DNA of 64,000 nt from Gammaproteobacteria bacterium (GTDB taxonomy: Bacteria; Pseudomonadota; Gammaproteobacteria; JAADGQ01), in contig JAKITI010000009.1 of assembly GCA_021648145.1 (NCBI GenBank), positions 1-64,000 on the forward strand, read 5' to 3'. Of the stretch, positions 1,481 through 4,678 are shown one piece after another; position 1 is the first letter of the stretch; every line of letters begins with the position of its first letter. The translations under genes and the position numbers were made by a program. The notes below the pieces were generated by a model, which saw nothing but the letters and a program-made list of their open reading frames with translations, ran no database searches and was not told the DNA's origin.

Positions 1481-2113
1481 CTACCGCGCAACGACTTCCT
1501 GCCACCAGTTGGGCGAAGCCAATACGACATCATCTGTTTCGTAAATTCGATTCGCAGTTTTAAGAGAGTCCAGCCCTGACTCTGTCTGTATCAGAAAAGT
1601 ATTCGGCGCAAATGTTAGAGGTTTGATCACAGTTAAAGCATGCGCATCAAACCATGCCTCTATCTCTTTCTGGCTCCAGTCAGGCTTCATTTGAACCAGA
1701 ACATTCCCTGGCAGAGCCCTTTTTACTCCATGAGTTGATGCCGTATCATGCAATACAGGAGAGAGATTGCTGTCCGTTCCGGACTTTAAGCTTCTAGCAA
1801 CCGCTTTGGTTGAGGTGTGATCCTTAATCTTCCACAAGCGAATATAGGGTGATTTTACATCAACTTCTTTCGCGGCATAAAGTGACCTTAGCTGAGCGCT
1901 TGTTTCAGGCTTTAACTTGAATTCAGCGATTAACTCCGGATTCACCCAGACGGATTTTTTCCGATCCCCGTCATACCAAAAGTAATGCGGTAACTCCGCA
2001 AGCCCAGCTTCACCCATTTTCGAAGATGAACTCACCGACAAACCTGAGTGGAGCACCATCAGCCCCATGATGATGCTCACAAAAGCCCATTTACGTAACA
2101 ATATTATATTCAT
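1481..2113 (-). CDS. Secreted stand-alone subtilase-propeptide-like protein
   Basis: The 210-residue product has an N-terminal signal-like segment (residues about 9-27). Residues about 135-208 read like the N-terminal propeptide of fervidolysin/proprotein-convertase-type subtilases: a beta start (PGNVLVQMKPDWS), an amphipathic helix (QKEIEAWFDAHAL), a second strand ending FLIQTESG, a second helix, and a terminal LASPNWW, resembling the AEPN-like end of such propeptides just before the mature enzyme. The catalytic domain is absent. The gene begins 15 bases after the stop of the subtilase gene on the same strand, so the two are probably co-transcribed. The upstream subtilase has no recognisable propeptide of its own. 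Inference: this protein may act in trans as folding chaperone or inhibitor. The domain call is by eye and needs a profile search. Confidence 0.6.
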   Translation of the reverse strand: MNIILLRKWAFVSIIMGLMVLHSGLSVSSSSKMGEAGLAELPHYFWYDGDRKKSVWVNPELIAEFKLKPETSAQLRSLYAAKEVDVKSPYIRLWKIKDHTSTKAVARSLKSGTDSNLSPVLHDTASTHGVKRALPGNVLVQMKPDWSQKEIEAWFDAHALTVIKPLTFAPNTFLIQTESGLDSLKTANRIYETDDVVLASPNWWQEVVAR

Positions 2114-2128
2114 AATAAACTATTAATC

Positions 2129-4678
2129 CTAAGTTCCGTAAAAGGTCAGCCCCCATGACTGAAATGTCCCTTTATCACTCGAACTCTTGTCTCTAATAAT
2201 TAACTGCCAATCTCCATCTGCACTTTCACCGAAGTGGCGTGCTGAACCAAAGCGCCATGCATCATAAGGCGCACATCCACCAAACCTACCATCACACTTA
2301 TGCTTTTCTGCTAAACGACTCTCTGTTCCTGTTGTCACATTAACCAATATTATTTCCAGATCACCAGAGTAAGTGTGATCCGCAGCACTAAATTTGATTT
2401 CAACAAACTCAAGTTGACTGATGCCACTCGAACTTACACTCAAAGTTGAATCAGAAGAGGTGCCATCATTATCTCCAATTGGTTTATTAACATTATCAGC
2501 CTGTATCGAAAACTTTTTCTCAGCCCCCAAAAAATCCCAGTTTTTTGCTAACAAAACAGCAGCCTCCGCATCCACCACGCCAAAGCCATAGTTATGGTTC
2601 ACATGCAGCCCTGCGCCATTTATTTTCCAATCGGATTGATCTGGATCATTTTTTTTCGCGCTGTGCGCTAAAATAGCGTGAACGTCACGCCACCCTAATT
2701 CAGGATTGGCCTGCAGTATCAGCGCGGCCACACCAGATACCATCGGCGCTGCAGCAGAAGTTCCATTAAAACAATCGGTGTAATCATCAGCACTATAACC
2801 ACTACTTCCAGTGTTATCTGTCGTCACAATGCCATGTTTTTTACAATCCTCTCCCCCCGGAGCACTGACTAACAGATTCGCTCCCTGCTCACTGTCAATA
2901 GAGCGTTGGCCTGAATTATTCACTGAGCCCACGGCGATAACGCCCCGATAATTCGCATAGCCATCGTAATTTGAATTATCACTGAAGTCCCCTGCATGGC
3001 CATTACCCGCCGCCCAAACATAAATGACCCCTAAACCATTGCGCCCAACTTTGTGCCCCGTTTCATCAATCGCCGTACGCCAGAGAGCCGAAGAATCAAA
3101 AAGTATCCCTCTGTAATCAGGAACCCCCCAGCTATTATTAGAGATGTGGTTGTCTACTGCGTCTCGAGTCATCGCATCAGCTTCATTCTCATCAGTCTGC
3201 TCCATCAAATAGTTATATCCGACCAGCTCAGCACGAGGCGCAATCCCTCTAACGCCCACGCCATTCAAATCCCGAGCAGCAATGATGCCTGCGACACTAG
3301 TGCCATGCTTACTCCCTTGTGATGGATCAGTTCCCTCATCAGAATAGTTATAACTTTTACCGGGTACTACGTTTGCTTTTAGATCTTCGTGCCCAATTTC
3401 CAGTCCGTCGTCAACAACAACAATGCGAACCCCTTCCCCACGACATGAGCTCTCAAGGCAATTGCTCCAAACGGGCTCGACATTAATATCTTCACCCACA
3501 ATGCCTAGAATTCCATCATTACCCGCTTGCCCTGTATTTTTCAGATGCCACTGGCCTGAAAATAAAGGGTCGTTACTGTAAATTTCCCAATGATAGGTTG
3601 CCGCCTGACCTTCGTTGGTAGCCGCATCAATCGCCCAAACTTTGAATGTGCGATCACCCGCCTTCAGACCTGTATAATTTACAGGACTGGTGCAACTCTC
3701 AAAATTACCGTCATCAAGACTGCATTTAAACGAAGCGTCTGCCTCTGACTCAAACAAAAAAATAGCATCAGTTAGCTCTGTGGGCTGAGGAAAAGGATCA
3801 TTTGTAATATTTGTATCGGGCGGTGTGGTATCAATTTCCCATTGGTAAACTGCATCTGTGGGATCCATATTTCCTGCAATATCAATGGCTCGGACTTTGA
3901 ATGTGTAACTGCCTTCAACCAGGTCTTCGTAGGTTGTAGGGGTGCTACAATTAACAAACGAACTATCATCAAGGCTGCACTCAAACGAAGCCTCTGCCTC
4001 CGTGGCTGTAAAAGAAAACTCAGCCCGAGTTGAGCCCGTCGCAGAAGAAGGGCGCTTTGTAATATTTGTATCGGGCGGTGTGGTATCAATATCCCATTGG
4101 TAAACTGCATCCGTAGAATCTGCATTTCCTGCAATATCAATGGCTCGAACTTTGAATGTATGACTGCCTTCAGCCAGGTTCTCGTAGCTTGCAGGGTTGC
4201 TACAGTCAGCAAAATCACTACCATCAAGGCTGCATTCAAACGAAGCCTCTGCCTCCGTGGCTGTAAAAAAAAACTCAGCCAGGGTTGAATTCATCACGGA
4301 AGAAGGGCGCTTTGTAATATTTGTATCGGGCGGTGTGGTATCAATACCCCATTGGTAAACTGCATCCGTGGGATCCGTATTTCCCGCAATATCAATGGCT
4401 CGGACTTTGAATGTGTGATCACCCACCGTCAGGCCTTCATAGTTTACAGGGCTGGTACAACTAACAAACTCACTACCATCAAGGCTGCACTCAAACGAAG
4501 CCTTTGTCTCCGTGGCTGTAAAAAAAAACTCAGCCAGGGTTGAATTCATCACGGAAGAAGGACTCTTTGTGATATTTGTATCCGGTGGTGTGATATCACC
4601 ACCGCTAGAGCTGCCACCGCATGCTGTCAGCATAATAATAGCGAAGGCTATTGATAAATATTTTGTTAATATAACCAA
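2129..4678 (-). CDS. Lipoprotein subtilase: four Ig-like repeats, kexin-type S8 domain, P domain
   Basis: The 849-residue product starts with a lipoprotein signal peptide (LTAC, lipidated Cys20). Residues 29 to about 367 are four Ig-like repeats of about 85 residues, each beginning TPPDTNIT and carrying two cysteines. A subtilisin/kexin-like peptidase domain follows (about 370-715): Asp423 in VVVDDGLE, His458 in KHGTSVAG, oxyanion Asn559 in AAGNG, and Ser641 in NGTSAAAP. The last 125 residues, ending SWGLTFYGT, resemble the P (Homo B) domain that stabilises proprotein convertases. All catalytic residues are present, so it should be an active surface protease anchored by lipid. There is no propeptide between the Ig repeats and the catalytic domain; a propeptide-like gene follows immediately. 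The substrate is unknown. Confidence 0.88.
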   Translation of the reverse strand: MVILTKYLSIAFAIIMLTACGGSSSGGDITPPDTNITKSPSSVMNSTLAEFFFTATETKASFECSLDGSEFVSCTSPVNYEGLTVGDHTFKVRAIDIAGNTDPTDAVYQWGIDTTPPDTNITKRPSSVMNSTLAEFFFTATEAEASFECSLDGSDFADCSNPASYENLAEGSHTFKVRAIDIAGNADSTDAVYQWDIDTTPPDTNITKRPSSATGSTRAEFSFTATEAEASFECSLDDSSFVNCSTPTTYEDLVEGSYTFKVRAIDIAGNMDPTDAVYQWEIDTTPPDTNITNDPFPQPTELTDAIFLFESEADASFKCSLDDGNFESCTSPVNYTGLKAGDRTFKVWAIDAATNEGQAATYHWEIYSNDPLFSGQWHLKNTGQAGNDGILGIVGEDINVEPVWSNCLESSCRGEGVRIVVVDDGLEIGHEDLKANVVPGKSYNYSDEGTDPSQGSKHGTSVAGIIAARDLNGVGVRGIAPRAELVGYNYLMEQTDENEADAMTRDAVDNHISNNSWGVPDYRGILFDSSALWRTAIDETGHKVGRNGLGVIYVWAAGNGHAGDFSDNSNYDGYANYRGVIAVGSVNNSGQRSIDSEQGANLLVSAPGGEDCKKHGIVTTDNTGSSGYSADDYTDCFNGTSAAAPMVSGVAALILQANPELGWRDVHAILAHSAKKNDPDQSDWKINGAGLHVNHNYGFGVVDAEAAVLLAKNWDFLGAEKKFSIQADNVNKPIGDNDGTSSDSTLSVSSSGISQLEFVEIKFSAADHTYSGDLEIILVNVTTGTESRLAEKHKCDGRFGGCAPYDAWRFGSARHFGESADGDWQLIIRDKSSSDKGTFQSWGLTFYGT
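3578..4594 (-). repeat. Four tandem ~255-bp repeats coding for Ig-like domains
   Basis: Four head-to-tail units of about 255 bp occupy 4340-4594, 4085-4339, 3830-4084 and roughly 3578-3829. The first three are nearly identical over long stretches at the DNA level, including the blocks coding for TPPDTNITKRPSS and FKVRAIDIAGN; the fourth is diverged. Such units can change in number by recombination and may be misassembled from short reads. They form the stalk between the lipid anchor and the protease domain. Confidence 0.88.

Follow-up and report, generated by a model that had tools for sequence, protein, structure and literature searches.

The 64,000-nucleotide stretch of gammaproteobacterial DNA analysed here (the window) encodes a kexin/furin-like subtilase that has no propeptide of its own, although enzymes of this type normally depend on one for folding, and, directly downstream of it, a small exported protein that is very probably the propeptide of this protease supplied in trans. 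This partner would bind the protease and chaperone its folding, and would then act as an inhibitor resembling a cleavage product. The reading is based on the anatomy of both genes, a sequence match to a prodomain family, the predicted fold, the co-occurrence of the two genes, homology to the cis-encoded pro-region of single-chain subtilases, and a conserved basic tail.

Both open reading frames on which the original prediction was built are present on the minus strand, separated by a gap of 15 bases (2114..2128). The protease gene (2129..4678) is read from 4678 to 2129, begins with TTG, has a stop codon three codons upstream, and encodes 849 residues. Its N-terminus reads as a signal peptide with the lipobox LTAC (Cys20) and Gly after the Cys (4619..4678, minus strand); homologues have similar N-termini, and the protease is predicted to be an outer-membrane lipoprotein. 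Four Ig-like all-beta repeats follow at residues ~34–365 (3584..4579, minus strand), as indicated by Big_13/Y_Y_Y matches, the structure model, and a tandem array (3801–4598, period 255) in which three of the repeats are near-identical 255-bp units. The subtilase catalytic domain occupies residues 414–700 (2579..3439, minus strand; Pfam and alignment columns) and matches the S8 profile at E 1e-47, and a P-domain lies at residues 767–846 (2141..2380, minus strand; PF01483, P_proprotein, E 1.4e-12). The catalytic residues were described earlier as intact, and they are: Asp423, His458, the oxyanion Asn559, and Ser641 share alignment columns with their counterparts in each of the 36 proteases. With its D-H-S triad, oxyanion Asn, and P-domain, the window protease belongs to the kexin/furin-like subtilases (S8B); its best PDB relatives are furin (E ~1e-55) and kexin (~1e-48), and Aeromonas ASP ranks after both. 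Asp521 and Asp572 are the putative S1 acids. The latter aligns with the Asp of furin NCDGYTN, which we take to have a role in the S1 pocket, and in the alignment the S1 Asp equivalent is kept in 20 of the 23 linked protease-partner pairs, the window included.

No propeptide had been expected between the Ig repeats and the catalytic domain, and none is found. The predicted structure passes from a signal helix through the four all-beta units to the catalytic domain, and no beta-alpha-beta-beta-alpha-beta unit precedes the latter; the mean pLDDT of this model is 74, and residues 363–390 fall below 50. In several homologues, the catalytic region starts after only 31–45 residues, a count that includes the signal peptide; in L036, L045a, L046, L048, and L049 the stretch is 31–44 residues long, which leaves no space for a propeptide. 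Kexin-like proteases also occur on alphaproteobacterial plasmids (L061, L062, and L063), where the catalytic region starts no later than about residue 42 of the reading frame, with little or no space for a propeptide, and is followed by long C-terminal regions; these enzymes possibly leave the cell by type I secretion and fold afterwards. No such partner was seen beside L061 and L062, whose catalytic domains are likewise not preceded by a propeptide. Thus, a missing propeptide is by itself no proof that a trans factor is needed.

The partner gene (1481..2113, minus strand, read from 2113 to 1481 with an ATG start) encodes 210 residues with an export signal read by eye, and belongs to a family of 25. 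The claim that its C-terminal part resembles a subtilase propeptide is borne out by residues 132–202 (1508..1720, minus strand), which match PF22148 (Fervidolysin_NPro-like) with 23.5 bits against a curated cut-off of 21; this was the only family matched at E<=10. At E<=1, PF22148 is matched by seven of nine members of the partner family, and the partners of L037 and L038 gave no match. A structure model built from 17 sequences places a beta-alpha-beta-beta-alpha-beta unit at residues 138–201, with pLDDT of 89–97 in the blocks over 121–200. Additionally, an N-terminal domain at residues 41–122 (1748..1993, minus strand) is delimited by the model and by the homologous region of a fused subtilase; within it, a second ferredoxin-like unit is predicted at residues 51–122 at lower confidence (pLDDT ~57–93 by block of ten).

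Comparison of the partner model by VIA-align gave the PC1/3 prodomain bound to furin as the first match (Z 8.9, 72 aligned residues, 2.7 A), two further entries of the same prodomain at ranks 2 and 3, and POIA1 (Z 6.6) and pro-subtilisin E (Z 6.5) at ranks 7 and 9. On this scale, Z under 8 is modest and within the range that common folds reach; only the first match exceeds it, and unrelated rows attain up to Z 6.8. Foldseek returned nothing at E<=0.001, and its top 50 were ACT, RRM, and designed folds, with no propeptide and no Aeromonas ORF2. The subtilase propeptide fold proposed for residues 135–208 was not refuted by this comparison, as VIA-align ranks a prodomain first and the Aeromonas ORF2 chaperone fourth. 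Given the Foldseek null and the modest Z scores, the sequence match, the fused homologues, the co-occurrence, and the tail pattern weigh as much as the fold.

The stand-alone propeptide fold shared with POIA1 and the I9 inhibitors also favours a different role, in which the partner would be an inhibitor or self-protection protein only, binding a folded protease whose folding is independent of it, as with fungal POIA1 or SUB1-ProM. Unlike POIA1 and the I9 inhibitors, the window partner has no I9 Pfam match. Subtilisin, the target of stand-alone propeptide-like inhibitors, has its own propeptide. That such inhibitors exist is documented by SUB1-ProM of Plasmodium, which according to its abstract (PMC6993865) is encoded beside subtilase genes, as the window partner is; however, the same abstract states that its target SUB1 has its own propeptide, whereas the window-type proteases have none.

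Further evidence comes from fused relatives. The single-chain subtilases L022, L023, L024, and L039 contain a region homologous to the partner, N-terminal to the catalytic domain. Residues 1–171 of L022 align with partner residues 33–202 (24% identity, E 6e-8); PF22148 scored in L024 and gave no score in L022 or L023. As the L022 alignment spans both partner domains, the separate partner matches a complete two-domain pro-region and not a stray domain. By the curated cut-off, its domain is the same as that of the PF22148 pro-regions of single-chain subtilases; in contrast to these, the pro-region here is a gene of its own that usually follows the protease gene, and its product carries a separate export signal and ends in a basic residue. 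This correspondence to a whole pro-region, along with the operon pairing and the presence of several pairs per genome, makes a purely inhibitory role unlikely, and a propeptide supplied in trans is the preferred reading.

The window genome holds three protease-partner pairs (C9, C4, and C21). About 1.6 kb past the intact C4 pair lies a 37-residue remnant (L014:7781-7891; C4:93780-93890) that is 57–68% identical to the C-terminal part of the partner; a protease remnant was not found beside it, and it probably represents one more copy on that contig, now decayed. Altogether, 25 distinct partners were collected, forming 15 groups at ~50% identity, after three duplicates with the same coordinates and products (L043, L044, and L050, equal to L016, L018, and L017) were counted once each. 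They come from the same genus, other Gammaproteobacteria, Thiomicrorhabdus, Lysobacteraceae, Acidiferrobacteraceae, and Wenzhouxiangella, as well as from MAGs labelled betaproteobacterial, Burkholderiaceae or just Proteobacteria, and two MAGs labelled Nitrospinales. The starts used for L017 and L038 precede the likely ATG by a single residue and that of L019 is uncertain, with the C-termini unaffected. A lipobox-like Cys near the N-terminus was seen by eye in about 7 of the 25 partners (L015, L017, L019, L020, L021, L036, and L048), and in such pairs both proteins may be lipid-anchored.

The layout of the genes is mostly constant, as 23 of the 25 partners directly follow the protease, with gaps of -2 to 87 bases. 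In genome G197 the order is reversed (L038:2584-5096), the partner preceding the protease as a separate reading frame that keeps its Arg end. A Thiomicrorhabdus MAG contains two complete pairs in tandem (L045:4316-9435). The partner of L020 (L020:7103-7720) is unlinked and is the only partner gene detected in its genome, G049, where two propeptide-less lipoprotein proteases stand in tandem on another contig (L042:204-4391); this is a natural trans arrangement.

The suggested survey of gene co-occurrence favours the pairing. Among 369 genomes of the class, a full-length partner is present in nine, all of which have the protease; G058 and G194 matched the partner search solely through fused subtilases. 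Conversely, the protease was detected at E<=1e-40 in 12 class genomes, three of them without a partner: G002 and G132 have a cis pro-region, read by eye, and G232 has a very large multidomain protein. The co-occurrence yields a Fisher value of 3e-17 (9/0/1/359 table), in which G132 and G232 are treated as having no protease of the close type and kinship is disregarded. Partner and protease distances are correlated (r 0.89; none of 5000 permutations as high), and this is no evidence of contact because inheritance of a shared operon predicts it. There was no partner match in plasmids and none confirmed among viral contigs, and the phylum sample gave a match in 1 of 397 other genomes, in a 654-aa frame that is probably a fused form.

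The C-terminal tail of the partner is LASPNWWQEVVAR, of which the last six residues are informative. The original prediction of a propeptide-like C-terminal part that ends in LASPNWW needs a small correction, as QEVVAR follows (1484..1501, minus strand), with Arg at the end, six residues after the last Trp. In the alignment of 25 partners, the spacing from the last conserved Trp to the C-terminus is exactly six residues in every case, and the terminal residue is Arg or Lys in 24 of them (14 of the 15 groups at ~50% identity), compared with 4 of 46 long reading frames of the window. Kexin-type propeptides have basic ends because the enzyme cleaves there, and hence the genome-encoded basic end of the partner resembles a pre-cut product. 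Among the 23 linked pairs (L055, whose protease is cut by the contig end, was excluded from the tree and the S1 table, and L020 has no adjacent protease), the sole non-basic tail is that of L049, which ends in Leu and whose protease lacks both S1 aspartates. The L018 and L019 proteases also lack both, yet the tails of their partners end in Arg. Covariation of S1 acids and tails is therefore suggestive only, with a Fisher value of 0.13 in the 23 linked split pairs and of 0.004 with two ORF2-type pairs added, the rows being non-independent and the mix picked after inspection of the data.

A secreted protein sharing an operon with a protease might also be its substrate or be unrelated to it, and co-transcription by itself proves no interaction. 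Nothing specific favours this explanation, and the PF22148 match, the fused homologues, the genome-encoded tail of fixed length, and the protease in all nine partner-bearing genomes render it quite improbable. Although the existence of fused relatives could suggest fragments of one broken protease gene, as a pseudogene or an assembly artefact, this is already refuted, since the gene order, with the partner 3' of the protease, is not what a simple frameshift would produce, each protein has its own export signal, and the split form recurs as intact reading frames in many genomes.

Under the preferred reading of a propeptide supplied in trans, protease and partner would be exported separately, and the C-terminal prodomain of the partner would bind to the catalytic domain and serve as the template on which it folds. 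As in a kexin-type propeptide after cleavage, the free C-terminus ..WWQEVVAR would then occupy the substrate cleft and place its terminal Arg in the acidic S1 pocket. Owing to this placement, inhibition of the new enzyme would end only once the partner is released or degraded.

The closest known counterpart is the A. sobria protease ASP with its partner ORF2. Excerpts of two reports (PMC5638518, PMC2613230) describe ASP as lacking a propeptide and requiring ORF2, encoded just downstream, whose C-terminal Lys is at the ASP catalytic centre and which inhibits ASP with an IC50 of 84.3 nM; they also mention asp-orf2 operons in Vibrio, Shewanella, Chromobacterium, and Pseudoalteromonas. The trans-acting partner of the original prediction is supported by sequence, predicted fold, fused homologues, co-occurrence, and tail; the arrangement, there called unusual, has a characterised precedent in ASP/ORF2. 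Chaperone and inhibitor, which had been posed as alternatives, need not exclude each other, as ORF2 is reported as both in the same excerpts. The two systems (PDB 3WQB and PF18492 for ASP/ORF2) have in common a kexin-like S8 and P-domain protease without N-terminal propeptide, a small exported partner encoded directly downstream, and a tail with a basic end, Lys according to the excerpts on Aeromonas ORF2.

However, the window partner differs from ORF2 in matching PF22148, in its second predicted domain, and in having fused relatives. PF18492 (ORF_2_N) was not matched by the window partner at E<=10, nor was it among the families matched by nine members, while the same library found it in ORF2 of Pseudoalteromonas (1.2e-9) and V. 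campbellii (1.1e-25). No PF18492 match came up among 274 surveyed genomes of the class, while a positive control record was detected. A sequence link to ORF2 was also sought against the PDB, where both phmmer of the partner and hmmsearch of the family profile missed 3wqb_B and gave chance rows, e.g. PPAR-delta, as best hits. Alignment of the partner family by hhalign with one and with two ORF2 proteins was non-significant, the two-protein run putting the C-terminal domains in register. In fold, ORF2 (3wqb_B) ranks fourth in VIA-align, with model residues 42–210 on chain residues 12–129 (91 aligned, 2.8 A) at Z 7.2, below the caution line of Z 8. In a tree of 36 catalytic domains, the 25 split-type proteases fall on one side of a weakly supported branch (69/87), and the two ORF2-type proteases lie elsewhere, with RTX proteases (80/77); the tree has long branches, and a common clade of both types is not rejected (p-AU 0.19). 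The fold similarity leaves open that window partner and ORF2 may have a very distant common origin.

A 2022 survey, as far as its excerpts go, lists ASP as the single subtilase exception without an N-terminal propeptide chaperone (PMC9549277), and the partner family was not recognised in titles and abstract beginnings of the papers listed by searches on ASP/ORF2, stand-alone subtilase propeptides, and this arrangement. The trans arrangement itself is already known. The novelty lies in the partner, which belongs to another family that sequence comparison does not link to ORF2 and that has fused counterparts. Further new traits are the pre-cut end conserved among the tails, the layouts with reversed or unlinked genes, and a lipoprotein protease bearing Ig repeats. 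As a tentative proposal, trans propeptide chaperones of kexin-like subtilases may have arisen at least twice, the window representing a second family whose source would be the pro-region, with its two domains, of fused subtilases; the encoded Arg or Lys would mimic the cleavage product so that self-processing is unneeded, and one partner could serve several proteases at unlinked loci, as may happen in G049.

The partner family suggests that the design for which ASP stands as the exception recurs among Gammaproteobacteria. Moreover, its cis-encoded relatives, none of which were observed here for ORF2, offer a route to testing the change from an intramolecular to an intermolecular chaperone. They also make it a testable question whether the omission of self-cleavage alters the control of a surface-anchored protease.
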